Positions 14,433 to 59,100 of a stretch of DNA of 64,000 nucleotides are shown here, piece after piece. The translations under genes were made by a program, and so were the position numbers. Numbering within the stretch: position 1 is the stretch's first letter; each line of letters begins with the position of its first letter. The stretch comes from Tomocerus qinae. Its lineage: Eukaryota; Arthropoda; Collembola; Entomobryomorpha; Tomoceridae. The stretch is from NCBI GenBank assembly GCA_020055645.1, contig CM034546.1, positions 138,529,875-138,593,874 on the forward strand. Reading direction: 5' to 3'. Under the pieces are notes generated by a model, which did no database searches, was not told the DNA's origin, and saw nothing but the letters and a program-made list of their open reading frames with translations.

Positions 14433-14925
14433 AATCGGAGTTTAATCTGTTTTCAAATCCCAAGGTGAAATCTAAGATGCGATTATTTAGCTGAACTATA
14501 TATTATATGTCGTAATACTAAAATACAAGTTTTGAGATGTCTTCAAGATCGGCGACCACAATTGGACTTTTCTGCCTGTAATTGCTATGTAGAAATGACT
14601 AATATGGGAGATAGTAATTTCAAAATGTTAGATCAAGGTAGAATCAGCAGACTTCTGTCAATATAAATGATAGTTTACGAGTTGTGTATATATTGTGGTC
14701 GACGTTGGTTTGCTATGTTCTTTCACAACAGTACCAAGTGAGATCAGCAGATCTGAATCTGTGCTTCAAAAAGGTTTCATCCCTGCCAATTCCTTCAAAA
14801 CCGACCCACACACAGACTCTTTTAATGCACAGATAGGTAAGGCTAGGCAGAAATACATTGACATTACCCAACTACTTATAGGTATAAATACTTAAATATG
14901 CACAACATTCCGATTACCGTATATA
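14433..14925. other. Upstream region of P450 copy B
   Basis: Homologous to 4043-4540 upstream of copy A, sharing AAGTGAGATCAGCAG, GTGCTTCAAAAAGGTTTCA and the AACCGACCCAC segment. A likely shared promoter region. No other gene is seen. Confidence 0.6.
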
Positions 14926-16085
14926 TGTTGTAGGCGGAGAGGGAAAGGTTACTGGGAGGGATATAATGGCCCTCTCCGACTAGGCAGGGAGAGATAGCGA
15001 TTCTATGTGTATAAGTGCCACCAATGTCGCAGATTTTAGGTTACTCTGATATTTATTCATTGTAATCATTATTTTCTATAATATTCATAAATATTAAGTA
15101 TATTGCACTTTTTGAATCAGTCATAATAAAATCAAAAATTATTAAGTCAAGATTGACAGTCAAATAGTTAAGTATGTTTCGCTGCTATAATTATTAATAA
15201 TTGATATTTTTTCCAAAGCCAGGAGTTCAATTATCTAAATTTTTGCAAGAACGGCTGCTGCCGTTGTGGCATTCAGTGCCACAGTGTATATCATTCTTTT
15301 TACAGGGGCATATTTTACTTTAAAAGTTACCCTTGCACTTGCAAATGGATTGAGAGGTGTACGATGTTACAGATCGCAATGCAGTTATGTGCTTTATAGA
15401 TGCCTCCGGCTATCCAGTTGTGTCGATTTCAGCGGTCCATCGACCGACATTTATTTCACTTACCGTACATTCAATGATCCCTTTGGCACATTGTAGCTTA
15501 AGATTACCATTTTCTAGTCTTTGGAGAACTTTACATGGTAAGTTTGTTGGATCAGTATTTGATAAACAAATAAACGAACTGACCAATTCCCAAGTGACTT
15601 AAATTACGATATATTAGTAAATATTATAAAGTACTAAATGGTAAAAGTATATAAAGTTGTACTAAATGCCACAACGGCAGCAGCCGTTCTTGCAAAAATT
15701 TAGATAATTGAACTCCTGGCTTTGGAAAAAATATCAATTATTAATAATTATAGCAGCAAAACATACTTAACTATTTGACTGTCAATCTTGACTTAATAAT
15801 TTTTGATTTTATTATGACTGATTCAAAAAGTGCAATACACTTAATATTTATGAATATTATAGAAAATAATGATTACAATGAATAAATATAAGAGTAACCT
15901 AAAATCTGCGACATTGGTGGCACTTATACACATAGAATCATTCATATCAATCATTTACGACATATCCCTCCCAGTCGGATACCTTATGGCTCGGTACCGC
16001 TAGCGGTACAGAGCTATCTCTCCCTGCCTAGTCGGAGAGGGCCATTATATCCCTCCCAGTAACCTTTCCCTCTCCGCCTACAACA
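14926..16085. mobile_element. Foldback transposon with ~350-bp inverted arms
   Basis: Left arm 14926-15273 and right arm 15665-16085 are near-identical inverted copies, both ending TGTTGTAGGCGGAGAGGG. The right arm has about 75 extra bases (roughly 15948-16012) containing a near-perfect palindrome, GGTACCGCTAGCGGTAC. The centre (15274-15664) is noncoding. The element is flanked by TATA on both sides (possible 2- or 4-bp duplication). It is absent from the matching position upstream of copy A, so it inserted after the segmental duplication. Confidence 0.85.
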
Positions 16086-17620
16086 TATACGTTTGAGAAT
16101 TCAGCAATGAAAGTTTGCATGTCAACCCTTCGCCACTTTGTAAACATTTTGATACTCATTTTTCAAACCCATTTCATTCATTTTTGGAGTTTTCGTAAAT
16201 ATTTTTGGGCTAAAAATATAATGTTCGCTTATTATGAAATTTTTACCCATTAAATCTTCGACAGTTGAGCAAAGAAATATTTATACACACATTTTCGGGA
16301 AATAAATAAATTATTATCACAGCCAATTAATAGAACTCCAACCAATGGGTTTTATTAAATGTTATCTCATCCGCACTAAGTTGTACACTGGTTCCTTTGT
16401 TTTATTTTTTTTAACAATTTGTAACACAGGTGATGTATATGAACATAGGTATAACAATGTAGTGTAGATTGCTTGTGGTAGGAATTAAAGCATACATTTT
16501 GTGAGCACATTACATGATATATCTAACCTTACAATTTGGTTGTATACGTAGATGTTATTGGGGCAATTATTAATAAAATAAATGGAAACACAATATTATT
16601 ATGCTATCTAATGTGGTCAGTGCAAGTTCTTTTTGCGACCTTGGATTGTATAAGGCGATGATGACCAGACAGATTATAAAGATATAATGCATTATATTAT
16701 GCACTGTATATATAACATGACATAGCTTCACCGTATACTAAGTACTCGCCTGAATGGTCTAACGAACGATTTAAGCACACGAAATGCTTTTTGTTGCTTA
16801 TGCATACGCAATTTATTTATTTACTTCCATAGTTGGGCAAAATGCATGTATTTTAAATATATATCGTATTTAAAAAGATACCTAGAATAAACTATTTTTG
16901 TATTGTCAAAATACATTTTACAAAACACTAAAATACTTATTTGTCGTATGAAGCTACTAAAAACGAATGAAGAAATATTTTTATTGCTTCATATTAGCCG
17001 AGAAATGTATTTTGTATTTTCCTGGATAATGCATAATGTTCAATTATATTATGTATTTGTATGTATATGTATTTTGCAATTTGTATTTTGCAATCATTAA
17101 TGTATTTTGTATTTTAAGCTTAAAATTTGTTATTTTGAGGAAAGAATCTCCCAAATTCTTTATCCTGTATATTGCCCAACTATGTTTAGTTATTGTATTA
17201 ATGTAGAGAGTAGAGATGCAGTATAGAATTGTTATGCATGCATCCTTGAAAGCATACTTTACGTTCTTTTTTCTGTGTACCCAACAATTAAATAAAATAA
17301 TATGGTATATGTAGTGCAAATTGTAGAGTGGGTATACAATAGAGTCTGGAAAATTGAATTTAACTGGCGGCATAGGATTTAGAGCATTTTAGGCCGAGAA
17401 TTCAGAATTCAAATGGGTGGTACATGCATTCATCAGAATTCTGAATCCTTGGACAAAATAATTTCCTTGCATTTTTAAAATATTTATTATTAGTTAAAAT
17501 AAATTGCATTTAAGTTTGGCAATTTTTAATTTTGTAAAATTTTCTAATAATTTCAATGTAGGTATTCAAATTTTGGTCAAGTTTTGATCAACGATAAAAG
17601 GTATGTTACGGCTATTTTGC
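16086..17620. other. Far-upstream part of duplication unit B
   Basis: 16430-16770 matches 5140-5500, and 17360-17560 matches 5690-5830, all in the same order. The shared landmark TGGTCTAACGA occurs in both. Highly AT-rich, with no coding exon recognised. Confidence 0.6.
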
Positions 17621-33000: not shown

Positions 33001-34432
33001 ATTTGACTTAACCTATAAGATAATATTTTATTTGACTTAATCGATAAGATACTTTTTTATTTGACTTAACCTATTAAATAATATTTCATTTGACTTAATC
33101 TATAAGATAATATTTCATTTGACTTAATCTAAAGATAATATTTTATTTGACTTAATCTAAAGATAATATTTTATTTGACTTAATAGATAATATTTTATTT
33201 GACTTAATAGATAATATTTTATTTGACTTAATAGATAATATTTTATTTGACTTAATAGATAATATTTTATTTGACTTAATAGATAATATTTTATTTGACT
33301 TAATAGATAATATTTTATTTGACTTAATAGATAATATTTTATTTGACTTAATAGATAATATTTTATTTGACTTAATAGATAATATTTTATTTGACTTAAT
33401 AGATAATATTTTATTTGACTTAATAGATAATATTTTATTTGACTTAATAGATAATATTTTATTTGACTTAATAGATAATATTTTATTTGACTTAATAGAT
33501 AATATTTTATTTGACTTAATAGATAATATTTTATTTGACTTAATAGATAATATTTTATTTGACTTAATAGATAATATTTTATTTGACTTAATAGATAATA
33601 TTTTATTTGACTTAATAGATAATATTTTATTTGACTTAATAGATAATATTTTATTTGACTTAATAGATAATATTTTATTTGACTTAATAGATAATATTTT
33701 ATTTAGCTTAGGTACCTAATTATTTTAGATAATTTTTTATTTAACATAATCTTTTAGATAAGTTTATATTTAACTTAACTAATTTTTTAAAGACAATTTT
33801 TAAACTTAATTTTTTAGATATTTTTTAACTTAATATTTTAGATAATTTTATGTTTTATTTAACTCAATTTTCTTAGCATTATGATATAAAGTTTTACTAA
33901 TTTTGTTTGCGTATACATATACTATAATGTTTTTAGCTATTTCAATGCCCAATCGTAAAAATATAAAATTTTACCATTCTGTAAAGTACGATTAATAAGG
34001 GTACTGTGAGCAGGCACTTTGGTTGTATTATTTCTGATGAGTTGTAGTCCGTGTTTATTTACTAATAATTTTTTTAAATTTCCTACAAGTGGGAAGTGGA
34101 CCTGTGGCTCAGAAATTTACGGGAAATCATTTCCCTATACTTTCTTCACGCTATAATTCAAAACTTATTACAATTTTTTAATGTTTGTTTGGCAACAACT
34201 GCAAAGTATTGACCTCCTGCCACTTTTAGGAAATTTCAAAAACATTTGGAGAATAAATTCGAACTGCACTCTAATCCGAATTAATACACATAAAGTGACC
34301 GGTCAAAGTCCGCCTATTAACCAACCTTAATACAATTGCAGTAAAGGGAAGCCGGTTGCTTTGCTGCCAGCGGATCCGGAGCAGGATTTGCGTCAACACT
34401 GGACTTTAGAGCAGGCAGACCAGAATGAATAA
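30020..34432 (+). CDS. Unrecognised protein, five coding exons, ~177 residues
   Basis: Exons: 30020-30133, 30711-30816, 30922-31034, 32524-32633 and 34342-34432. Each intron has GT/AG ends. The phases chain without a stop (0, 1, 0, 2), giving 534 bp and ending in TAA. That agreement over four introns is strong support. The protein is soluble-looking, with no signal peptide or membrane segment. It has an acidic middle (TELDADSDTQRF), a charged helix-like part (KSTKHEKHF), an aromatic-basic segment (KVWNRMWYAKKKS, then SRVYFLKP) and an acidic tail (LPADPEQDLRQHW). I do not recognise the family and give no function. The ATG at 30020 is the first after the acceptor, but upstream coding exons are possible. 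Intron 3 carries two MITEs and intron 4 a 24-bp satellite. AATAAA overlaps the stop, and another lies near 34613. Confidence 0.65.
31521..31692. mobile_element. hAT-type MITE, CAAGCACGTATCCAG ends
   Basis: Perfect inverted ends CAAGCACGTATCCAG. Flanking 8-mers GGCTAGTC (31513-31520) and GACTAGTC (31693-31700) differ at one base. It lies in intron 3 of the five-exon gene. Confidence 0.78.
31947..32129. mobile_element. Second MITE of the CAAGCACGTATC family
   Basis: Ends CAAGCACGTATCCAG and, on the other strand, CAGGCACGTATCTAG. It lies 255 bp from the first copy in the same intron. The target duplication is not preserved. Confidence 0.65.
32813..33704. repeat. AATATTTTATTTGACTTAAT satellite with a unit-length gradient
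   Basis: From about 33177 to 33700 there are some 22 essentially perfect copies of a 24-bp unit (AGATAATATTTTATTTGACTTAAT, given here as two parts: AGATAATATTTT and ATTTGACTTAAT). To the left the units are about 28-30 bp and diverged, with CTATAAG or CGATAAG spacers in a repeating higher-order pattern. It lies inside intron 4 of the five-exon gene. Confidence 0.92.
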
Positions 34433-40640: not shown

Positions 40641-40812
40641 TGCTTATGCCTGGCTCCGCCAAGGGTAAACCGTCTCACATTGTTTTTACAATGTCTTGCG
40701 ATACCCCAGGTACATTTTTGGAGGACGAACACTTACATGAACTCTTACTTTTTATAGAGAGATTTGCTGAGAAAAAAAATAAAGGAAGAGCTTCTGGAGG
40801 TCTGCTAATTGG

Positions 40813-41909
40813 TGGTAGGTCAGTTTGGCAAAAGCCATTTTGGCAAAAAAATATTTTTTTTCAAATTGACCACTGTGGATAATTTGGCAAAACGAGTCGG
40901 ATAATTTGGCAAAACGAGTCGGATAATTTGGCAAAACGAGTCGGATAATTTGGCAAAAGTCGGTTTAAGTAATGTTTAAGACGCTGCAGGACATGTAAGT
41001 CATGTTTTATGCTGGGTTCAGTACTTAATGCGAAGGTTGTGCATGTTAATACATTCTAATTTGTATGACTGATTTATCACTCACCTCTCAGTTTCTTCTG
41101 AGGAATGGCTGAGTCAACATTAAAGTACGTTTCCCGAACGCTGACCAAAGTAACGCATAAGTTGGCTCGTAATGGATATTCTTATAGTTTGCGAAACACT
41201 TGTGGACAGAAGAAATATTGGTACTGTACCCAAAGGGAGATTTGTACTGCATCGTTAATTGATAAAGGAGTGTTTACTTGTGGCCGTAAAGGTCGGTTGG
41301 AGAAATGGAAATGTCCACGTTAGCCATGACCCTCACATTGATACTTTTTCTGTGGATTTGATTGAAGGAAGAGCAAAGTAGATGGCAATTAATAGCCCAT
41401 TAAAGTGCACAGGAGACATATACGATGAGATAACACAGGGAGTTTGTTTTCACTTAAAGATGGGCTGTGAAAAACCACCAATATATGGAAATTCATTTTA
41501 GTTATGATGAACGAACAAGAACGAACAGAAAATACACTTTTACGAATTGTAAATGGTATCTACCCAATAAGAAGTTTACTGTATGCTAAAATACACAGTA
41601 AACTTAAAAAAACAACCCAGAAAATATGGCAACAAGAGGTTTCCCTTTTCAAAATATAAAAATCGTTGCCATGAACTTGAAATAGTTTTACCATAATTTT
41701 AACTTTAATTTATTTCTGCCTATTTGACTACGTGTTCATGATTTTTTATGACTTGATAATGATAATGTTTGTTTTATTGTCCTACAAAGCCATAATAAAT
41801 GTAACTTGAACATAAATAACACATTTTGCCAAATTATCCGCTTTTTTGCCAAATTATCCACAACGTTTTGCCAAATTATCCGACTTTTCAAAACATTTTT
41901 TTTGCCAAC
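40813..41909 (+). mobile_element. FLYWCH-bearing transposon (family 1), plus-orientation copy
   Basis: Starts TGGTAGGTCAGTTTGGCAAA. Both ends are built from iterations of GGATAATTTGGCAAAA: four units near 40870-40955 and three inverted units at 41826-41885. The inside encodes an FLYWCH zinc finger at 41105-41323 (LARNGYSYSL, KKYWYCTQREIC). A frameshift then separates the closing H-x3-H part (SHDPH) near 41327. Further open pieces (GDIYDEITQGV near 41420, NEQERTENTLLRIVNGIY near 41510) follow. FLYWCH fingers occur in Mutator-type transposases such as Phantom. No DDE domain is seen, so it is nonautonomous. The right limit is approximate. Confidence 0.75.
41105..41323 (+). pseudogene. FLYWCH zinc-finger protein fragment (family 1, copy 1)
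   Basis: A 72-codon frame beginning MAESTLKYVS. It holds GYSYSL, YWYC and REIC, the first aromatic and Cys positions of an FLYWCH finger (C2H2-type DNA binding). The second half with the two His is in another frame just downstream. The copy at 42936-43154 has the same break and one amino-acid change (TAS to TAL). Confidence 0.7.
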
Positions 41910-42362
41910 TCTAATGATTTTAAACATATTGAAAAATACATAAATGATGCTGCTTTAGTGTGCGGTTTAGTGAAAAAAAGATTACTCCCGTCAAAGCCCA
42001 TTCTATACCCTAAATATTTTAATACTTTGTGCCTTGCCAAGAAAAGAGAAGCAAGAAAATCTTATCAAAGATATACCAGGGAAGGTTGTGAGACATCAAA
42101 AAACATGTACATATCGACTAAAAGAGACTATCAAGCATACAAGAACAAATGCAAAAAAGAATATTATAACAATTTAACTAATGACCTAGCCAACTGTAGA
42201 AAACCTGCATTCTGGGCTGCACTTGCACTGTCACATTATCGAAGGAAGTCTAATTACAATTACAAAACCCAACCATCCTTATCTGCATTCAAAACCCATT
42301 TTGAGCAAACCTACTACTCTGAAGAGAGATTATACTGATGAGAATGAGCCACAAAGTTTTAA

Positions 42363-43402
42363 ATGTTTTGAAAAGTCGGATAATTTGGCAAAACGTTGTG
42401 GATAATTTGGCAAAAAAAGCGGATAATTTGGCAAAATGTGTTATTTATGTTCAAGTTACATTTATTATGGCTTTGTAGGACAATAAAACAAACATTATCA
42501 TTATCAAGTCATAAAAAATCATGAACACGTAGTCAAATAGGCAGAAATAAATTAAAGTTAAAATTATGGTAAAACTATTTCAAGTTCATGGCAACGATTT
42601 TTATATTTTGAAAAGGGAAACCTCTTGTTGCCATATTTTCTGGGTTGTTTTTTAAGTTTACTGTGTATTTTAGCATACAGTAAACTTCTTATTGGGTAGA
42701 TACCATTTACAATTCGTAAAAGTGTATTTTCTGTTCGTTCTTGTTCGTTCATCATAACTAAAATGAATTTCCATATATTGGTGGTTTTTCACAGCCCATC
42801 TTTAAGTGAAAACGAACTCCCTGTGTTATCTCATCGTATATGTCTCCTGTGCACTTTAATGGGCTATTAATTGCCATCTACTTTGCTCTTCCTTCAACCA
42901 AATCCACAGAAAAAGTATCAATGTGAGGGTCATGGCTAACGTGGACATTTCCATTTCTCCAACCGACCTTTACGGCCACAAGTAAACACTCCTTTATCAA
43001 TTAACAATGCAGTACAAATCTCCCTTTGGGTACAGTACCAATATTTCTTCTGTCCACAAGTGTTTCGCAAACTATAAGAATATCCATTACGAGCCAACTT
43101 ATGCGTTACTTTGGTCAGCGTTCGGGAAACGTACTTTAATGTTGACTCAGCCATTCCTCAGAAGAAACTGAGAGGTGAGTGATAAATCAGTCATACAAAT
43201 TAGAATGTATTAACATGCACAACCTTCGCATTAAGTACTGAACCCAGCATAAAACATGACTTACATGTCCTGCAGCGTCTTAAACATTACTTAAACCGAC
43301 TTTTGCCAAATTATCCGACTCGTTTTGCCAAATTATCCACAGTGGTCAATTTGAAAAAAAATATTTTTTTGCCAAAATGCCTTTTGCCAAACTGACCTAC
43401 CA
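42363..43402 (-). mobile_element. FLYWCH-bearing transposon (family 1), inverted copy
   Basis: Nearly identical to 40813-41909 on the other strand, with the same iterated GGATAATTTGGC ends and the same FLYWCH frameshift (42936-43154). Flanks read AGTTTTAA (42355-42362) and AGTTTAA (43405-43411), an imperfect target duplication. Using the left flank, LINE 2 reads on in frame as EPQSF then NYAVKRL, which supports an insertion here. Small indels distinguish it from copy 1 (e.g. an A-run near 41610 versus 42650). Confidence 0.78.
42936..43154 (-). pseudogene. FLYWCH zinc-finger protein fragment (family 1, copy 2)
   Basis: Same 72-codon frame as in copy 1, on the minus strand, ending GRLEKWKCPR at a premature stop. 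The shared break shows both copies descend from one already defective master. Confidence 0.7.
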
Positions 43403-44823
43403 TCAGTTTAACTATGCTGTCAAGAGGCTGTCTACCGGAAAAGCACCTGGAGAAGACGGACTACCTAATGAGATTTGGAAAATTTCCTCCCTCAACCTTA
43501 GACTATGCATACTGGACTGCTTCAATAATTATTGGCGACAAGAAAAGACGCCTTCATCCTGGTCACAAATTGTCATATCTCCAATATTCAAAAAAGCAGA
43601 CAAACTCGACCCAAAAAACTATCGTCCGATATCCCTAGCCAATACAATCTTAAAACTCTTTACTTCAATTATGAGCTATAGATTAAGTGGTTGGTGCAAA
43701 AGAAATAAAAAAATAACCGAATATCAAGCTGCGTATAGGCCTGGTCTTGGATGTGAAACTCAAATATTTAACCTTAACTAAATCATCCAGAATTCAATAT
43801 CTGCAAAAAAGAGGAAGTTATTTGCACTCTACGTTGACCTGTCTTCTGCATTCGATACAGTGTCAAGGAGAAAGCTCTGGAATAAGTTAAAAGTGATTGG
43901 TCTTAGTGACAAATTCATCTCAGTTGTCAAAAACATCTACTCTGATGCCAAAGCGAAGGTGAAAGTGGCTGCTTCCCAATAAGGACAGGAATTCTACAAA
44001 GTGAAACGTTATCAAGTAAATTATTTACTCTATATATTAATGACTTAATAGAAACTCTTGAAAATTCTGGTATTCCAGGAATTAAATTAGGAAAGTTAAA
44101 TGTCCATGCCTTATTATATAGTGACGATATTGTCTTGTTAGCTACAAATTCTGTGTACTTGCAAGATAAAATTAATATCTTAGCTAAATACCTAAAAGAC
44201 AATGGTTTAAGGGTTAATCTCAGTAAAACAAAAATGGTAGTGTATAGGAGAGAGAAAACACTTAAATCTGTACCAAAACTGTATTGGGAAAATGAGTTAA
44301 TTGAAGTTCTAGACTCTTATATATACCTGGGAATTCCTTTCCATGGGCACTATAACCAGAAAAAGATTTTTGAATACTTTAAAGAAAGAGCAAATAGTGC
44401 ACTATCTGCTTTATTTATACTATTTTACAGATCTAGAACTTTCTCAAGTCATAACAAATTATTTGAATCATTAATACGCTCTGTTATGACATACTGTGTA
44501 CCAATCTGGGGTCTAAAATTCTTTGAAAAATTTGAGATATTCCAAATGAACTTTCTTAGAAGACTATTTAATGTACCTACATGTACACCAAGATGGCTTC
44601 TAAGAATAGAAACTCTAGTTCGCCCTATCCAACTCTTCTTGATAAAGAATGTATTAAGTTTTTGGCAAAAGATTGTAAACCGGTCTAAAGATAGTTTGAT
44701 ATATCAATGCTATATTACTTTAAAAGTAAAATTCTCTGTGAAAAATGAAAAATATAATTGGTTTACTCAATTTAAAAACCTTGTCGATAAGTATAAAATT
44801 TATAATTTTGTAGACACTAATAT

Positions 44824-45309
44824 TTGAATTGAGTTTTATTTAATATTCTCGACGGCCCTTGGCCCATAGAATATGGAATTGATATATTTTACAAAATTAT
44901 AATTCTAATTAGGAGAATTTTACTATATTACAAAGGATTAGTTGTTTTCTAAATTGTCAATAAAGCTAATATTACATAAAGCAGACTTAACATTATCAAT
45001 AATGTTTCTTATGTCTCTTACGTTAGCACAGTCTAATACCTGATGTAACGAATCCAAGTCCTTGATGCCCAATGTTTCAATCTTTTGACGATTATGGATT
45101 CTACATTCCAGTATTAGGTGACCAAATGTATTGCTTTTCCCCATGTTACATAGATTACAAATGTCAGTGTTTTTAAACATAAAAATCTTGTTCTTATAAC
45201 TTAATAGATCACAATTTAACCTTAACTGATTCAGCAATCTAGCGTCCCAAAATGGTAATTTTATCTCAGTAAATTGGGAATGATCCCCTCTTGTCACAAC
45301 ATCATATGA
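44824..45309 (-). mobile_element. 5'-truncated LINE inserted in LINE 2, with 14-bp target duplication
   Basis: A perfect 14-bp direct repeat, GTAGACACTAATAT, lies at 44810-44823 and 45310-45323. On the minus strand the insert encodes the end of a LINE ORF2, with C-x2-C-x9-H-x4-C (ICNLCNMGKSNTFGHLILEC), stopping at 44938. A 3' UTR follows with GGGCCAAGGGCC and AATAAA. Truncation at the 5' end plus a long duplication is the signature of target-primed reverse transcription. Confidence 0.88.
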
Positions 45310-45954
45310 GTAGACACTAATATAGAGGCATGGGAAAGAAAACACTTCTACTTTACTGTGAATAAGTTACTCTACAATATTAATAGTGATATTCAAAGCT
45401 CAGATATCTCATGTATGCGCTTATCAAATACTTTTAAAAACTATTTAATCAACAAATCTCACATTCTAAGCCAAGAATATTTTAATTGGAACCAATCCTG
45501 GAAGTGGAATTTAGCAAGTCACTTTTTTCAGATAAGAACAAACATCAATCAAATCACAATAAATAATAAATCCTTAAATCTAAACTCTCTTAAACATTTT
45601 TATAACACTGATATAAATGAACTATGTGAACTCTGTGATCTTAAAGAAAAAGAAACAATAGAACATATTATGTTTGTATGTCCATGCTATAATAATATAA
45701 GAGGAACTCTTGTAACTAGTAATATACTATGCTTTAATGACATATATAAAAATCTATCGAAAGATCAGCTGAATGTTTTGTATACATTTTGGGTTAATGC
45801 AGAGAAATGTAAAAACTAAACATATAGCAATTATGATTATGAACTATAATATAAATACTACTACAACTATATAACCTCAGACTAGTCAAAACTATATTGT
45901 AATTGTATCCATATTATGCGATGTAAAGGCTTTGGCCAAAATCATCTGAAATAA

Positions 45955-45955
<1 letters not shown>

Positions 45956-45991
<36 letters not shown>

Positions 45992-45993
45992 GT
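45956..45993 (+). repeat. (CTA)n microsatellite tail of LINE 2
   Basis: About 12 CTA units directly follow AATAAA. Simple trinucleotide tails in place of poly(A) are known in several invertebrate LINE clades. Confidence 0.85.
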
Positions 45994-45995
45994 AC

Positions 45996-46480
45996 CTAAC
46001 ACAAACCCACCACTCCATACTTTTTAAAATTAGTTTTTTTTCATTCCACTCTACATTATCACTCCAGTTTTTTAACCATTTCCCTCATACGACACTATTA
46101 GTGCAGTTTTATAACAACTCCACTCACGCAACACTATTTCTGTAGACTTTATTTATAAACACCCCACTCACACAACACTATTATTGTACACTTTATTTTA
46201 TAAACACCCCACTCACACAACACCATTAAAGCACAGTTTAAAACTTCCCCACTCATACTGCACTATTTAATAAAAACTCTAATGACACTTTATACGCCAA
46301 CACTATTAGCAGAGTGTGATAAAAGATACCCATTATCGCGACTCTATTAAAGAGTTCAGTAGAATTCACCACTCACAGTTCAGTTTAATAATAAAGGGGG
46401 TTAGCACACTCACCATTACCACATTTTAACTTTTCAAAAGTGGAGTGTGCACACTGATTTAAACACTACACTCATTTTAG
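45996..46480. repeat. Degenerate tandem repeat, ACACCCCACTCACACAACAC units
   Basis: Imperfect units of about 45-50 bp containing CACTCACACAACACTATT and TTTATAAACACCCC are clearest at 46080-46230, decaying to the right. Confidence 0.7.
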
Positions 46481-47337
46481 TGTGGTCTGCTGCGCCGAGC
46501 TATGGTCACATGACACATGCATTCATACATAGGTAGGTATGGGCTATACAGCTACATGCTATGCTATACTAAATACAAGTAGGTAGGTGGGTTAGACTAC
46601 ACACTATTGTACATTACATAATATTATTATTACTGTGGAAATCTCCAGCCTATTATCTAGTATGTGAAATAATGTGTTAGAATATTGTATGTTATTGTAT
46701 TGTATGATGTGTCCTATCTATATTTCTAGAATCTTAAGATTATTTGTGAACTTTTGTTCTACTTTTTCTCTAAATGTATGAGTTGGGTTGCTGTCCAGAC
46801 CTCATAATTGCATAATTGGTGTCTGGAAGCAACCTTGCTTAAACTTGAACCTAAATGTATGAAGGTAACCATGTAATTCCCTATTCAATAAATACATGTG
46901 TCTTACCTGTACTCTGTGTGCACTTACCTCTTGCCTGTAGCTGTCAACACACCTCTCTTCTGTAAATAAATATTCTACAGATTTATACGTTGTTGTAGTA
47001 CCAGTCTCCCATTCCTCACATATCAGTTAGGCTCATCTCACAGTTTTGTCATAATTTAATTTTAGAAACTAGACTTTTCCTAACGATTTTCATTAACTTT
47101 GTGTTAGCACACGTAGCCAGGATAGCTTTTCTCAATTACATTGCATATTCATTTTATACTTGGAAAGCCCTCACTAAGGGATTCCATACTTAGCCTAGTA
47201 CGTACATAACACTATAGCATAAGGTTCACACTCTAGAAGAGGTTTCGAGCTAACGCCAAAGCAACCGTCCGTTCCGTCGCTTCCATGGTGCTCATGGAGG
47301 GATGTGGCAGAAGGGCTTTGGGGGTAACTATGACTCA

Positions 47338-47377
<40 letters not shown>

Positions 47378-48656
47378 ACATGAATGGATTAATGAGATTC
47401 TCACTGTCGCAATCTAATCCTTTTACCAGAGGAAAGCCTATCCAGGCGTCTCCAGTAGTGAATATTCTTGGAATCAATGTCATAATTTTACTAAAAACGA
47501 GAGCAAAGTCATTCATCTAAAGACGTCTGAGAGGTCAACAGGTTTGTCAAATGCATTAATTTTAAACGAAATAAAAGGACGATTTATTTTAATTTTTGTT
47601 TCAATCATGTAGTATGATTTTAAACACATTGGTGGATTTAATATATGTGGCCCCCTCAGCAAATTTAATCTTTCTGGTGGTGACTGAAGATTTTGGTTTT
47701 CTATTTCATAAAATAAAGAAAAAAATTCTTAATTTTAAACGCATTTCTACTATTTTTAAAAATTCATTGAAAGGGAGACAATTATTTTATGCTTTCATAA
47801 AATAAAACAAAAATAAATACATTAATCATACGTGTAAAATACTGAGAGGTTAGATTGATGTGGTTGGCTTGTATTCTGCTTTACTCAATACTGTAGTTTG
47901 CACCAGAAGGTTTAAGATTGCTGAGAATGGCACATATATTTTGAGAAGCAAATTTGTATTTAATTGAAACGAGAAAATTAGGGAGTGTGGTGTTAAGTGA
48001 AATGGCGAAATGATGGGATGTGGAGTTACGTGAAATAACGAAATGAGCAAATGTGGATTTACGTGCTCGGGGAAGTAAGGTGTCGTGCTACTACCACTAC
48101 TAATGTCGGTATATAATTTACTAGTCCCCGACGCTTTTTTAATTGCCATAAATATCGAAATGCTTAACCATAACATTATAGCTTCCCAGTAATCTCTGCT
48201 TTCATTCATTGATTTATACATTCTCTTGGTTTTAATTTAAAATTAAATATTAAGATGACATTAATAATCAATTTGCTAATGTTTGTACCGTCCAGGGCAA
48301 AGGCAAAAAGGTGCCATTTTGCCTTTTTGGTTATTTTAAATTAAATGAAATTTGTATGTGATCACAGACTAAACGTATGGAAAAATATCCATATAAGATA
48401 GAGTAATGTATGACAGAGCAATGTAATAACTAGGTAGTCAAATTTTTGCCCGTTATCTTGTTTGATTGGCTTCCGCGCTGCTCAGCATCACATGTCATTG
48501 GATGAAGGGAGGAGTTTAGGCCTTAGCCGCATGTTTACGAAACCACAACCCACTGAACCCCTTTTATTATATGGTTTCTGTACATCTTAAGTAAGAAAAA
48601 ACATTGTTTTTTCTTGTTTGTGAAAGTTTAATCTATGGTATGTCATATGTTATAAA
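46481..48656. other. Intergenic, no gene recognised
   Basis: A 123-codon minus-strand frame (47850-48221) contains repeated PH-x-x-I-S-x-F-H runs reflecting a short DNA repeat at 47950-48060. I do not call it a gene. 48296-48340 resembles one end of the 60676 MITE family (GGCAAAAAGG). Nothing else is supported. Confidence 0.35.
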
Positions 48657-49332
48657 GGAAGAACCCCTTATTGTCAACACCTTTTCGTCAACCCTGTTTT
48701 ATCAACAACATTTTTTTGTCAACACAAAGACTCTTTTTGTCAACACGTTATATGGAAATGTACTCCTTATAAACGTGGGCAGTTTAGCACAATAGGAAGA
48801 TGGTAACAAGTCGTCCTGCTATGTGGAAATTTATCAATGTGCTATAAAAAGAGCAACATAGGACAGAAAATACGTTTAAGCCAGAATCATTGGGCAACGA
48901 AAGAAAACAAAAAATCCACATGTTGCTAATTTTACAAAACGCTTAATAAAAATAGTTTACAACAAAACTAAAATGTCATTCCCAGAATGGATTTACAAAT
49001 TAGCGGACAAATTATAATAGGTATAAATTGTTTCACTGCCACATTTAATTATTCTTTGACTCAAACCCTTAAGCTCGGATGCTTAATTGTCACGTATATT
49101 AATATTGCTTATTGTATGACTTACTCAATTATTATTATCCTATAAATACTTTTTACACAACATTCTCATGCTTGTATTACTCACTTGTTCACTCAATACA
49201 ATTTCTAGTGCAATGAATAAAAATTTCTGTTTACAAAACAGGAAAAGTAGTGTTGACAAAAGGGAAAAGTGTGTTGACAAAAAGTATTTTTGATGTGTTG
49301 AGAGTTTGGTGTTGACAATTAGGGGGTGAATC
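48657..49332 (+). mobile_element. Iterated-end transposon (family 2), copy alpha
   Basis: It is 676 bp, with target duplication GTTATAAA at 48649-48656 and 49333-49340. The ends are GGAAGAACCCCTTATTGTCAA and, on the other strand, GATTCACCCCCTAATTGTCA. Each is followed by three to five spaced TTTTTGTCAACAC motifs. The inner part shares CTCCTTATAAACGTGGGCAG with copy beta. No FLYWCH code is seen in this copy. Confidence 0.82.
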
Positions 49333-49340
49333 GTTATAAA

Positions 49341-51001
49341 ATATATAGAAAAAAGCAATATTAAGATCTCATGTGAACAGGAAAACTGTGACAACCTCGA
49401 ATCCAATTATAATACTACATCTTTAAATGTAATAGCAAATGCTACAAGCTACAACAAAAGGGAACAAAGTCGTTGCATCGTCGAAAAGCACAATAAAACT
49501 CTGTCGACTGTAATTAATCGAATCGAAACTCAGTCTTCTAAATATCACTTTGCCCAACTTACAGAATTAATTGAGCATTTTCATTCCAAGCCACTAGCCA
49601 CTGCAACTCCAACGAAATATTAAATTATTTCTTATCTGATGTAAAGTAGATAGCAAGCTATCACTGCATCGCCCTACGCTATGTTGAATTGCATGCGTCA
49701 TTCAGAGTCGAGTCGTAACCTTTAGTGGAGTGAGTACGTGTGTTAGGGAGCTCCAACCAAATCATCATTTTGCAGCATAAAGCTAGATCTGTCCGACCGA
49801 AATTGGTTTCAAAAATTGCCTCTTAAGAAGACCTGGAAATTCCATTATCAAGTTGAGAAGGTCAGTAATTTTTGAAAAAACACACTTTTACCAAAAATTG
49901 CATGCCATGCATGGAGTAGTGAGAAAAATGGTTGTCCAGACAGACGAAGCGACATTGAAGCCCATAAAAAATGCAAACAATAAGCAAATCCCTTATTTGG
50001 TTATCAACGATCAACTTGGAAGTCATCCTAGCCTACTCCAAGCCACACTCGTACTCACATCCACATCGTACAACAGCCTTACGAAAGCACGACTCGACTC
50101 CCCCGACTTCTCTGGGATGGGTGTAGGTAGTCATAATATTATAGCTATTGTTTCACATATCTAAATACTAGTAGCCCCCAGAGCAGGACTCAATTTCGAA
50201 ATGTATATGCAATGATCATGCGGATTGGACATACAAATATTTATTTGTTCCCGCTTTTTACCCTACCACACATAGTTACATACATCTATAATATAAACGT
50301 CATCGAAATGTATGTTGTGTGTACAGATGTTGTAATGTTAAGAATGTTATTATTCGGCCACCGTACCGTTATTTCAAAATGTATTAACAACACAGTTTGA
50401 TTTATTTGCAAAAGATGCTAAATTCCATCCAGATAGAACTTGGTTTTATGCATACACGCTTGCGAGGTGATAAAATTATGAAAGTCACTGTTGTGAGACG
50501 TGGTAGTTGATACTCTTTCTTTCAAATTTAATATACCGTGCCGTGACCTTATTTTATACGCAGGAAAGTTTAAAATTTGGCTATTCACATTAAAACTATA
50601 TTTTTTCCAATTCGCAAATGGTTTTAAGCTAATAGGAGGTTAAATTAAAAATGTTATACGTCTTAAATAGAAAAGCTAAATCCATTCTTAAATAGAAAAT
50701 AATCAGAGCGAGATGAAGTGGTAAACAATTTTTTAATTGCAAATGTGTACGTTTTGAATTTGCCACTTATGTGTTATAGAGATTTGTTATCTTAAAATTA
50801 TGGCTTCTAATATGACGTCACAAATCGTGATGATGATAGGATTAGGAAGAGTATAAGTAGCCCTTAAAAAGTTTAGGTGGGTGAATATTTATGAATATAT
50901 AGAATATTTCTTTAATGTGATTCCATTTTCGTAGGTCATAGTCATGAATGTCATGGAAGTTGACATTTTCCTTGCATTGACACTATACAACGGTAGTATA
51001 T
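49341..51001. other. Intergenic between the two family 2 copies
   Basis: A 103-codon plus-strand frame (49853-50164) is preceded by AAG and GTCAG in a possible exon-intron context, but it resembles nothing known. No repeat is recognised. Confidence 0.3.
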
Positions 51002-51009
51002 GTAATTAG

Positions 51010-51719
51010 GATTCACCCCCTAATTGTCAACACTAAAATCCCAACACATCAAAAGTACTTTTTGTCAACACGCTTTTCCTTTTTGTCAACACCACTTTTC
51101 CTTTTTTGCCAACAGATATTTTTATTCATTGCACTAATTGTATTGCCTAAGAATTCCTTCCATCTACCCAACCTATTACTCCTTCAGCAAACTCTCCGTT
51201 TTCTTCTACCACTACTGCAACATATATCCCTTTCTGTACATGACCAGTACTTTTTTCTGGTCTTTGAGTTATTAGACTATAAATATAACCGTTTCTGGCC
51301 AGTGTTTGGGTCACTTTATTCTTCGTTTTGGAAGTAAACAAAGAAAAATATAAATACGATGCCATTTTTTCGTTATGTATTATTCTGTAGTGCACAGCTT
51401 GAAGAGACAAGAACAAATAAATTTCAGAGTCAGAGACTTACCTTATATTCCCCCTTGCATTCATTACCAGCAATTTAAATATCTGATAATGCATAAAATG
51501 GTAATCAACCCAGGCAGTAATTTATATTAGGAGAGGAATGTAACAACGAAACACATATCTTACATGAACTGTATAACATAAACTGCCCACATTTATAAGG
51601 AGTACATTTCCTTATAACGTGTTGACAAACAGAGTCTTGGTGTTGACAAAAAAAACCGTAAAAAATGTTGTTGACAAAAGAGGGTTGACAAAAAGGTGTT
51701 GACAATTAGGGGTTCTTCC
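51010..51719 (-). mobile_element. Iterated-end transposon (family 2), copy beta, with FLYWCH remnant
   Basis: It is 710 bp, inverted relative to alpha, with perfect 8-bp duplication GTAATTAG at 51002-51009 and 51720-51727. The ends carry the same TTTTTGTCAACAC iterations as alpha. On the minus strand at about 51180-51330, LARNGYIYSL is followed, after a frameshift, by KKYWSCTERDIC. This parallels LARNGYSYSL / KKYWYCTQREIC of family 1. Confidence 0.82.
51180..51330 (-). pseudogene. FLYWCH zinc-finger remnant (family 2)
   Basis: Aromatic and Cys positions of an FLYWCH finger (GYIYSL, YWSC, RDIC) lie in two frames. A stop follows soon after, and the His pair is not visible. It links family 2 to family 1 at the protein level although their terminal DNA motifs differ. 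Confidence 0.65.
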
Positions 51720-51727
51720 GTAATTAG

Positions 51728-53119: not shown

Positions 53120-53250
53120 AAATGGAAAAACCTACAGCAAGCCGTAACAGAAGCTCGCCTGAGTAAAGGGGATCCTGTGCACATTTTTGGTAGAATAATA
53201 GTAGATATAAATTTATTTTGATTACTAAAGTAACTATTAAACAAAACAAT
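53120..53250 (-). repeat. Right-end fragment of the CTCGCCTGA family, inverted
   Basis: CCTACAGCAAGCCGTAACAG then AGCTCGCCTGA (53152-53162) match the right end at 59090-59125 on the opposite strand. It abuts the satellite to its right. Confidence 0.65.
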
Positions 53251-54895
53251 CTGTAAAATTATTGGACATGCCCATGACCATTAAGGGTGCAATTTGTAGT
53301 CTCATATAAATGTCTACATCGTATGGGTAAAACGACAGTTTGGACTTTTGTGTATATAATTTAAAAGCGAATGAACCAAATTCAACCATATTTTGCTGAT
53401 AAATACTTTATATATGTACCAACATTCTGTAAAAATATTGGACATGCCCATGGCCATTTGTAGTTTCATATTATAAATGTTTAAAACGTATCGGTGAAAC
53501 AATTTAGAAATTTTTTGTAGATAATTCGAAAGCGAGCGTACTAAATTCAATCAAATATTGCAGACTAATACTTTATATATGTACTAACAATCTGTAAAAT
53601 TATTGGACATACCCATGACCATTAAGGGTGACATTTGTAGTTTCATATAAATGTCTATATCGTATGGGTAAAACGACAGTTTTGAACTTTTGTGTATATA
53701 ATTTAAAAGCGAGTGAACCAAATTCAACCATATTTTGCTTATAAATACTTTATATATGTACCAACATTCTGTAAAAATATTGGACGTGGCCATGACCATT
53801 AAGGGCGGCATTTGTAGTTTCATATTATAAATGTTTAAAACGTATGGGTGAAACAATTTAGAAATTTTTTGTAGATAATTCGAAAGCGAGCTTACTAAAT
53901 TCAATCAAATATTGCAGACTAATACTTTATATATGTACTAACAATCTGTAAAATTATTGCACATACCCATGACCATTAAGGGTGACATTTGTAGTTTCAT
54001 ATGTCTATATCGTATGGGTAAAACGACAGTTTTGAACTTTTGTGTATATAATTTAAAAGCGAGTGAACCAAATTCAACCATATTTTGCTTATAAATACTT
54101 TATATATGTACCAACATTCTGTAAAAATATTGGACGTGCCCATGACCATTAAGGGCGGCATTTGTAGTTTCATATTATAAATGTTTAAACCGTATGGGTG
54201 AAATAACCATTTTGAACTTTTTTGTAGATAATTCAAAAGCGAGCGAATTAAAGTCAATCAAATTTGCTAGATATACACTTTATATATATGCCAACATTAT
54301 GTGAAAATATTGGACGTGCCTATGACCATGAAGGGTGCAATTTGTAGTCTCATATAAATGTCTATATCATATGGGTAAAACGACAGTTTTGAACTTTTGT
54401 GTATATAGTTTAAAAGCGAGTGAACCAAATTCAACCATATTTTGCTAATAAATACTTTAAATATGTACCAACATTCTGTAAAAATATTGGACATGCCCAT
54501 GACCATTAAGGGCGGCATTTGTAGTTTCATATTATAAATGTTTAAAACGTATGGATGAAATAACAATTTTGAACTTTATTGTAGATAATTCGAAAGCGAG
54601 CGAACCAAATTCAATCAAATATTGCAGATTAATAGTTTATATATGTACTAACAATCTATAAAAATATTAGACATGCCCATGACCATTAAGGGTGGCATTT
54701 GTAGTTTCATATAAATGTCTATATCGTATAGGTAAAACGACAGTTTTGAACTTTTGTGTAGATAATTCAAAAGCAAGCGAATTAAAGTCATTCAAATTTG
54801 TTAGATATACACTATATATATAAGCCAACATTATGTTAAAATATTGGACGTGCCCATGACCATTAAGGGCGGCATTAGTAGTTTCATATGAGAGA
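53250..54895. repeat. ~175-bp satellite, about ten monomers in alternating types
   Basis: The landmark ATTGGACATGCCCATGACCA (or close) recurs near 53260, 53440, 53603, 53782, 53960, 54132, 54310, 54487, 54668 and 54843. Spacing is about 163-180 bp. Monomers differ by TTTGTGTATATAATTTAAAA versus TTTTGTAGATAATTCGAAAG, largely alternating, which implies a ~350-bp dimeric unit. Minus-strand open frames here are by-products. Confidence 0.9.
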
Positions 54896-57448: not shown

Positions 57449-59100
57449 AGCTCGCCTGATAAGGCAGCTTATAGAATCACACAGTCCGTCCGTGCGTCCG
57501 TCCGTTTACACGATAACTTTTGAAGACATTGATGGATTTCAACTAAACTTGGCAAAAACATTGCCTATGGACCTGTGACAAAGCCTATTGAAAATGGGCC
57601 ACATTGGTCCACAGGTTGCTGAGATGACGCGCGCTCACTTTGTCTTCATTTTGATAGTCAAAATGAAAATGTGACATTAAATGGACATTAAAAGTTCAAA
57701 TGTGCTTCCTATGGATTGTTAGCGGGATAGTACAAAATATTAAATGCCGCTTCGACCAAATTTGAAATTTTATAATAAAGTAAATAAAACCGGAAAATAC
57801 CTATTATAGGACGGAAATAAATCTATTTCGCATTTATATGCAAATAGATAGTTAAATTTATATTTTTCGAATTACTTTTCATTATGATAGCTAACATTAA
57901 TCAATTTTGATTTTCTGTTGATTTTCATAGTCAACATTAATAAATTTCGATTTTCTGTTGCTTTTCATAGTCAACGTTAATCTGCTTTGATTTCCTGTTG
58001 CTTTTCATAGTCAACGTTAATCAATTTTGTTTTTCTGCTGATTTTCATAGTTGGCAATTACCTATTTTGATTTTCTGTTGATTTTCATAGTTGGCAATTA
58101 CCTATTTTGATTTTCTGTTGATTTTCTTCATAGTCAGCAACTACCTATTTTGATTTTCTATAGATATTTTCATAGTCATCACTTATCTATTTTGATTTTC
58201 TGTTGCTTTTCATAGTCAACATTAATCTATTTCAAACTTCTGTTGATTTTAATTGTCAATATTATTAATCTATTTTGATTTTCTGTTGATTTTCATAGTC
58301 AACAATTATCGATTTTGATTTTCTGTTAATTTTCATAGTAAACAATTATCGATTTTGATTTTCTGTTGATTTTCATAGTTCGCAATTACCTATTTTGATT
58401 TTCTGTTGATTTTCATAGTCAGCAACTATCTATTTTGATTTTCTGTTGATTTTCATACTCAACAATTATATATTTTGATTTTCTGTTGATTTTCATAGTC
58501 AATAACTACCTATTTTGATTTTCTGTAGATTTTCATAGTCAGCAACTACCTATTTTGATTTTCTGTTGATTTTCATAGTCAACATTAATCTATTTCAAAC
58601 TTCTGTTGATTTTCATTGTCAATCTTATTAATCTATTTCAAACTTCTGTTGATTTTCATTGTCAATCTTATTAATCTATTTTGATTTTCTGTTGATTTTC
58701 ATAGTCAACAATTATCGATTTTGATTTTCTGTTGATTTTCAATGTCAATCTTAATTTATTTTGAATTTCTGTTGATTTTCAATGTCAATCTTAATTTATT
58801 TTGAATTTCTGTTGATTTTGATGGTCAAAATTCATCTATTTTGATTTTCTGCTGATTTTGGAAATCAACATTCATCTATATTGATTTTTTATTGCTTTTG
58901 ATAGTCAAAATGAATCTGATTTTATTTTCTGTTATTTTTCATAGTCAATGTTAATCTGCTTTGGTTTTCTGTTGACTTTGATGGTCAAAATTCATACATT
59001 TTGATTTTGATACTCAATATTAACCAATTGATATGAAAATAAACCTATTTCTATTATTCTACTAAAACTGTGTACACGGTTCCCTTCACTCAGGCGAGCT
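57449..59100 (+). repeat. Complete CTCGCCTGA-family element carrying a minisatellite
   Basis: Left end AGCTCGCCTGA (57449), right end TCAGGCGAGCT (59090-59100). The left part has GTCCGTCCG iterations, ACGATAACTTTTGAA and a conserved stretch (TTGGCAAAAACATTGCCTAT). The rest is the minisatellite 57880-59030. Fragments of the family lie at 2104, 25944, 53152 and 62045. Confidence 0.8.
57880..59030. repeat. TATTTTGATTTTCTGTTGAT minisatellite (~42 bp x ~26)
   Basis: The unit is TATTTTGATTTTCTGTTGAT plus TTTCATAGTCAACAATTATC, with variants such as CAAACTTCTGTTG and AGTCAGCAACTACC. Local blocks of near-identical units at 58370-58600 suggest recent tandem growth. Confidence 0.93.

Follow-up and report, generated by a model that had tools for sequence, protein, structure and literature searches.

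Four transposon insertions, two from each of two families and all with iterated inverted ends, lie in a 64,000-nt stretch of the Tomocerus qinae genome (the window). These are very probably non-autonomous, internally deleted Mutator-like elements (MULEs) from two related FLYWCH-MULE families of Phantom type and foldback-like structure, whose finger would bind the end motifs, dock there as multimers and mobilise the copies in trans. The evidence consists of end arrays and tips, target-site duplications (TSDs), relatives carrying FLYWCH and MULE domains, and a core of the end motif common to the families at a fixed register. The iterated GGATAATTTGGCAAAA and TTTTTGTCAACAC units in inverted arrangement, described in an initial annotation of this DNA, were confirmed. 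That annotation took each family as one element; each is really two insertions in opposite orientation, named e1 and e2 (family 1) and A and B (family 2). In the assembly around the window (G000; 334 Mb, 115 contigs), GGATAATTTGGCAAAA was counted 142+130 times and its reversed control 2+0 times, which places it above chance, and the family-2 terminus CACCCCCTAATTGTCAACAC was counted 26+32 times versus 0+0. Another family-2 terminus lies at C1:138599168 of G000, about 5 kb past the window. In the portions inspected, no telomere repeat was seen at the ends of contig C1 or at the starts of C2 and C3.

The features of the four elements are as follows (TSD, target-site duplication; ORF, open reading frame; LINE, long interspersed nuclear element; L060 is a family-2 relative).

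48657..49332, + strand: A, 676-bp element of family 2, both ends complete (tip comparison)
48649..48656, partner 49333-49340, no strand: TSD of A, GTTATAAA, 8 bp
48794..49014, + strand: C-terminal transposase piece of A, two matched stretches (tblastn, query L060 C-terminal ORF, E 6.2e-18)
51010..51719, - strand: B, 710-bp element of family 2, both ends complete (tip comparison)
51002..51009, partner 51720-51727, no strand: TSD of B, GTAATTAG, 8 bp
51157..51416, - strand: FLYWCH remnant of B over two frames, LARNGYIYSL and then KKYWSCTERDIC (translation comparison)
40811..41908 (3' end approximate), + strand: e1, family-1 element (comparison with intact relatives)
40818..40958, + strand: 5' array of e1, units TTTGGCAAAA (array search and relatives)
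41105..41323, + strand: FLYWCH remnant of e1, 72-aa ORF (PF04500 E 9.3e-5; 22.9 bits, slightly short of the 23.6 cut-off)
41480..41551, + strand: scrap of C-terminal transposase in e1 (tblastn, query L060 C-terminal ORF, E 2.4e-4)
41824..41881, - strand: 3' array of e1 (array search and relatives)
42361 (approximate)..43404, - strand: e2, family-1 element, opposite in orientation to e1 (e1 comparison and relatives)
42936..43154, - strand: FLYWCH remnant of e2, 72-aa ORF (PF04500 E 5.4e-5, 23.7 bits, just over the cut-off of 23.6)
43409..44827, + strand: LINE with reverse transcriptase, host sequence of e1 and e2 (RVT_1 E 2.2e-4, below the Pfam cut-off)

Relatives carry a FLYWCH finger and a MULE transposase

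We searched the genome with the LARNGY finger, which gave at least 125 matches (150 of 234 candidates scored), with the Pfam FLYWCH profile (PF04500, cut-off 23.6 bits), which gave at least 133 (150 of 270 scored), and with the Pfam MULE profile (PF10551), which gave 59 (92 of 92 scored). The fetched loci were sorted by finger and end into S1 (family 1), S2, S3, S4 (family 2) and S5-S10; S9 consists of an end and a MULE piece, and no finger was seen in it.

The idea that these are MULEs with a FLYWCH finger and Foldback- or Phantom-like ends was supported by both design and relatives. The transposase turned out to be of MULE type: its DDE domain was found in relatives, which carry PF10551 or align to PF10551 proteins, and not in the window copies. 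The first catalytic D block appears as LLDGTF in family-1 relatives and as WIADGTF in the family-2 relative L054. The second block was detected in the S5 locus L061 (PF10551 E 3.9e-8), to which the family-2 locus L059 can be aligned (E 5e-36). The fingers of S7, S8 and S10 are Pfam FLYWCH domains (E 5e-15, 2e-13 and 1e-12, respectively), and the MULE parts of S7 and S8 are above the Pfam cut-off, with that of S10 just below it. The finger profile also picked up the solved FLYWCH domain 2RPR (E 4.2e-6).

Both families had been said to encode the FLYWCH protein. This holds for e1, e2 and B, where the finger is split between frames in B, but none was found when A was searched for it. Pfam called no FLYWCH on the frameshifted family-2 ORF of the window; among family-2 relatives L059 matches the profile above the cut-off and L060 below it (E 3e-4). 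Since remnants of both finger and transposase occur in the copies, e1, e2, A and B are best read as deleted derivatives of one gene plan and not as carriers of a free-standing FLYWCH protein.

Three further loci or groups of loci were recorded in these searches. L078 has one 489-aa ORF with FLYWCH and MULE domains, no end arrays were found in the 3.3 kb analysed, and it is a candidate domesticated transposase. In L061 the FLYWCH-MULE gene lies within a satellite of ~77-bp units, and the usual end arrays were not seen. Among the matches listed, FLYWCH clusters on one strand occur at G000 C1:106985540-107011035 (11 matches) and C1:125064628-125070713 (5 matches); neither contains a listed MULE match, and they are perhaps host FLYWCH gene clusters.

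Target-site duplications

Exact TSDs beside intact tips were found in 11 of 20 S1 loci, two of which (L011 and L012) have one flank in common so that the 11 loci represent ten sites, and in L017 in a separate comparison. The corresponding counts were 5/5 in S2, 2/7 in S3 and 8/8 in S4. The length in S1-S4 was 8 bp, apart from a single S4 locus with 9 bp. The 8-bp duplications first noticed in family 2, GTTATAAA and GTAATTAG, were borne out, and 8 bp is also the length in intact family-1 relatives. TSDs were present in one of three S5 loci (one S5 tip is 3 bases off), one of two S7 loci (L077 yes, L083 no), one of two S8 loci (in L079, a palindrome of 8 or 10 bp, its length being ambiguous), the single S9 locus (9 bp) and the single S10 locus. 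No convincing TSD was seen at the two S6 loci, which have TTTAGGCCAAT tips and one of which is single-ended. TSDs of 9 bp occur in L084, a SWIM-type MULE, and in the related L081. L079 itself is an element with 22-bp tandem units; it has the palindromic TSD (T)ACATATGT(A), and its tip is an imperfect palindrome.

Three results weigh against our interpretation of the elements as deleted FLYWCH-MULEs. Eight of the 20 family-1 loci, including e1 and e2, gave no exact TSD abutting both complete tips. None of the family-1 and family-2 loci fetched showed a fully intact transposase ORF, and at a maximum E of 10 Pfam MULE made no call on L014, a fragment from family 1, or on L060, an ORF from family 2.

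The end motifs of several families share a core in fixed register with the tip

Families 1 and 2 had been described as having unrelated ends. When we numbered bases from the tip inward, the first unit in five LARNGY-finger families read TTG(G/T)CA(A/T) at element bases 15-21: TTGGCAA in S1, S2 and S3, TTGTCAA in S4 and TTGGCAT in S5. S4 and S5 have 17 tip bases in common (GATTCACCCCCTAATTG), even though the tip concerned flanks one side of the gene in S4 and the other side in S5; the centre of S5 is GGC, as in S1. Beyond these families, S7 and S9 have TGG(T/C)C at bases 15-19, and S10 has TCGTCAA at bases 15-21 of one end, its other end being shifted by one base. T15, G17 and C19 therefore recur in S7, S9 and S10 (in S10 at one of its two ends). 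These findings argue that the end motifs of families 1 and 2 are related, through a core that both have in the same register.

In shuffle tests at the fixed register, the match was significant for S1/S4 (p 0.012), S1/S5 (p 0.007) and S4/S5 (p 0.0003), and non-significant for S1/S7 (p 0.26), S1/S9 (p 0.053), S4/S7 (p 0.40), S4/S9 (p 0.45) and S5/S7 (p 0.29). The units of families 1 and 2 agree at 7/9 bases in the fixed register (p 0.012) and at 8/9 bases in any register and on either strand (p 0.0095); a 6/7 match in any register is non-significant (p 0.18). S1, S4, S7 and S10 each have T15, G17 and C19, a post hoc choice, at one end (p 0.004). This value is flattering because the test was designed after the ends had been seen, used whichever end of a family fitted better and excluded S2, S3, S5 and S9 (kin of those used) as well as S6, S8 and the SWIM group. 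Across 379 units of S1-S5, identity within families is 82-100% at the seven positions of the core; the units were chosen by likeness to the unit, a choice that raises identity.

We considered whether the end motif grew as a neutral tandem repeat and the common core arose by convergence in A/T-rich DNA. The non-significant any-register match and the S1/S7 comparison are consistent with this, as is the absence of the core from the tips of the FLYWCH family S8 and from the MULEs L081 and L084. The constant tip distance in S1-S5, the low p values for S1/S4, S1/S5 and S4/S5, and the identity of the core within families speak against it, and we regard this alternative as unlikely. L081 and L084 have iterated inverted ends of their own with a different unit (AATGGGTAAATG in L084). 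L082 and L084 contain a Pfam SWIM match, whereas the single L081 ORF scanned gave none.

Unit spacing in S1, S2 and S4 is mostly 14-15 or 20-23 bp, and also ~25, 33 and 44 bp. S1 has steps of 22 bp (41 times), 15 bp (36), 44 bp (11) and 34 bp (9), then fewer; S4 has steps of 14 bp (18 times) and 21 bp (13), then fewer. Because ~21-22 bp corresponds to two helix turns, many sites would share one face of the DNA; steps of 14-15 bp are at odds with that arrangement.

Finger loop and motif centre

The initial annotation proposed that finger and binding site switch together. We compared loop type with core sequence in the 39 loci where a loop was found; some of these overlap and are related, two (L029 and L030) represent the window itself, and cores were counted over whole loci, with loci lacking a detected loop left uncounted. 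The TxRP loop goes with TTGTCAA in six of seven loci, the seventh (L064) being a broken family-2 copy with two TTGTC and two TTGCC units in the one end that it retains. The other LARNGY loops go with TTGGCA(A/T) in 30 of 32, and L057 and L058 tie with three each. Loop type and centre base agree in 36 of these 39 related loci, as co-evolution would predict, but the agreement reflects one switch on the tree, and ordinary descent explains a single switch equally well. A simple loop code extending beyond LARNGY fingers was rejected: the centre is GTC in S7 (TGG(T/C)C) and S10 (CGTCAA), yet neither has the TxRP loop. Identity between the S7 and family-2 fingers is 26%.

It is conceivable, if doubtful, that FLYWCH transposase fingers read a T-N-G-K-C core, set 14 bp from the tip and preserved since the families diverged, with the flanks and, in LARNGY fingers, the centre tuned by the loop that follows the NGY strand (GTC for LRTxRP, GGC for xTxx(G/K)). 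On its opposite strand the family-2 core reads TTGAC, as in the WRKY W-box. According to PMC2390551, WRKY proteins bind TGAC(C/T) and FLYWCH proteins are treated as members of the WRKY-GCM1 superfamily. As WRKY proteins belong to the same finger superfamily, the core could reflect an ancestral way of recognising DNA, and we take the connection as a lead. No WRKY chain was among the matches listed in our fold searches, and the available portions of PMC12265568 and PMC10027918 give no FLYWCH binding site.

The family-1 pair and its host sequence

Both e1 and e2 have arrays at both ends. e1 keeps its 5' terminus GGTGGTAGG and e2 its outer terminus GATGGTAGG. Intact family-1 relatives terminate in GGTTCTAGGTCATTTTGGCAAAAGTC, of which the truncated inner ends fall short, by ~29 bp at the 3' terminus of e1 (end set by eye) and by more in e2. 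The two elements share arms of 691 and 241 nt that are 100% complementary. Between them lies a piece of a LINE ORF, the same ORF as that beyond e2, and upstream of e1 is a further, endonuclease-like LINE piece. A long LINE ORF nested in the element L009 resembles this host LINE (compared by eye).

Selection on the 72-aa FLYWCH ORFs, for example as repressors made by small elements, would fit the open frame in e1 and e2, which differ by one residue, and a third open copy at C2:1750679. The finger is interrupted by stops, gaps or frame breaks in many other family-1 copies, however; the ORF of e1 and e2 stops where the reading of the gene shifts frame, and the e1/e2 identity runs on through the non-coding arms, so that we find selection very improbable. 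Scraps of the remaining transposase follow the ORF downstream. Also very improbable is one long foldback element per family, with e1-spacer-e2 and A-spacer-B as the arms of single transposons: the perfectly complementary e1/e2 arms would suit it, but A and B have their own, differing 8-bp TSDs and two complete tips each, which refutes it for family 2, the e1-e2 spacer reads as LINE sequence continuing beyond e2, elsewhere in the genome lone copies occur with two tips and a TSD, and no TSD was found around the e1-e2 pair as a whole, where the comparison gave one 7-base match inside the tips; given the separate TSDs and the LINE spacer, we rejected it.

Other repeats in the window comprise tandem arrays at 33017-33880 (24-bp units), 57780-59088 (40 bp) and 53226-54889 (~177 bp), and another inverted-repeat element at 14922-16089, with nested inverted repeats whose arms of 292 nt and 77 nt are 97% and 100% complementary.

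Proposed mechanism

The full-length gene would encode an N-terminal FLYWCH finger followed by the MULE DDE catalytic domain. We infer that the finger docks on the iterated end motifs, of which the first core starts 14 bp inside the tip and further units lie behind it. Several transposase molecules might then align along each end and pair the two ends, after which the transposase would cut at the tip and insert the element with an 8-bp stagger. Array-bearing copies without the gene (A and B, and e1 and e2 before their truncation) could be mobilised in trans.

Comparison with known transposons

In Drosophila Foldback/NOF elements the inverted ends are long and built from short iterated repeats, and the elements described here have ends of the same structure. 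The Phantom group was reportedly named by Marquez and Pritham. By their design, namely a MULE DDE domain in relatives, an N-terminal FLYWCH finger, TSDs of 8-10 bp and the form of the ends, we assign the present elements to the Phantom type.

For the finger docking on iterated ends, our working model is Galileo of the P-element superfamily, in which a transposase finger binds tandem repeats of foldback-like ends; Galileo differs in having a THAP finger and a P-type transposase, versus FLYWCH and MULE here (PMC3688188). Phantom elements carry FLYWCH or SWIM, terminal inverted repeats (TIRs) of 18-613 bp and TSDs of 8-10 bp, and the group, numbered 20 in that paper, includes the Muta families (PMC6446971). 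Muta1-Muta14, MULEs of Aedes aegypti, resemble our elements in their 8-9 bp TSDs and non-autonomous derivatives; TIRs exceed 100 bp in 12 of the 14 families, 10 of those 12 have subterminal repeats of 9-15 bp, and an N-terminal FLYWCH is predicted in 13 of 14; several families with differing repeats share one genome, as here (PMC5225508). Muta1 units are 3-4 bp apart, unlike ours, and the likeness is one of design (PMC5225508). Tm1, a Mutator/Foldback element of root-knot nematodes, likewise has composite TIRs with ~14-bp units, derivatives resembling miniature inverted-repeat transposable elements (MITEs), and a 496-aa protein with FLYWCH and MULE that matches our gene plan, but its TSDs are mostly 9 bp and its unit CGATTCAGTATCCGC is unlike TTGKCA (PMC3169594).

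Because Muta1 (PMC5225508) and Tm1 (PMC3169594) already share this design, the elements do not form the novel group initially proposed and are placed in a known one. The useful yield is instead a common fixed-register core across FLYWCH-MULE families once thought unrelated. This genome offers several such families whose end units can be aligned at single-base level starting at the tip, and thereby a means of testing the DNA code of a finger about which little is known.

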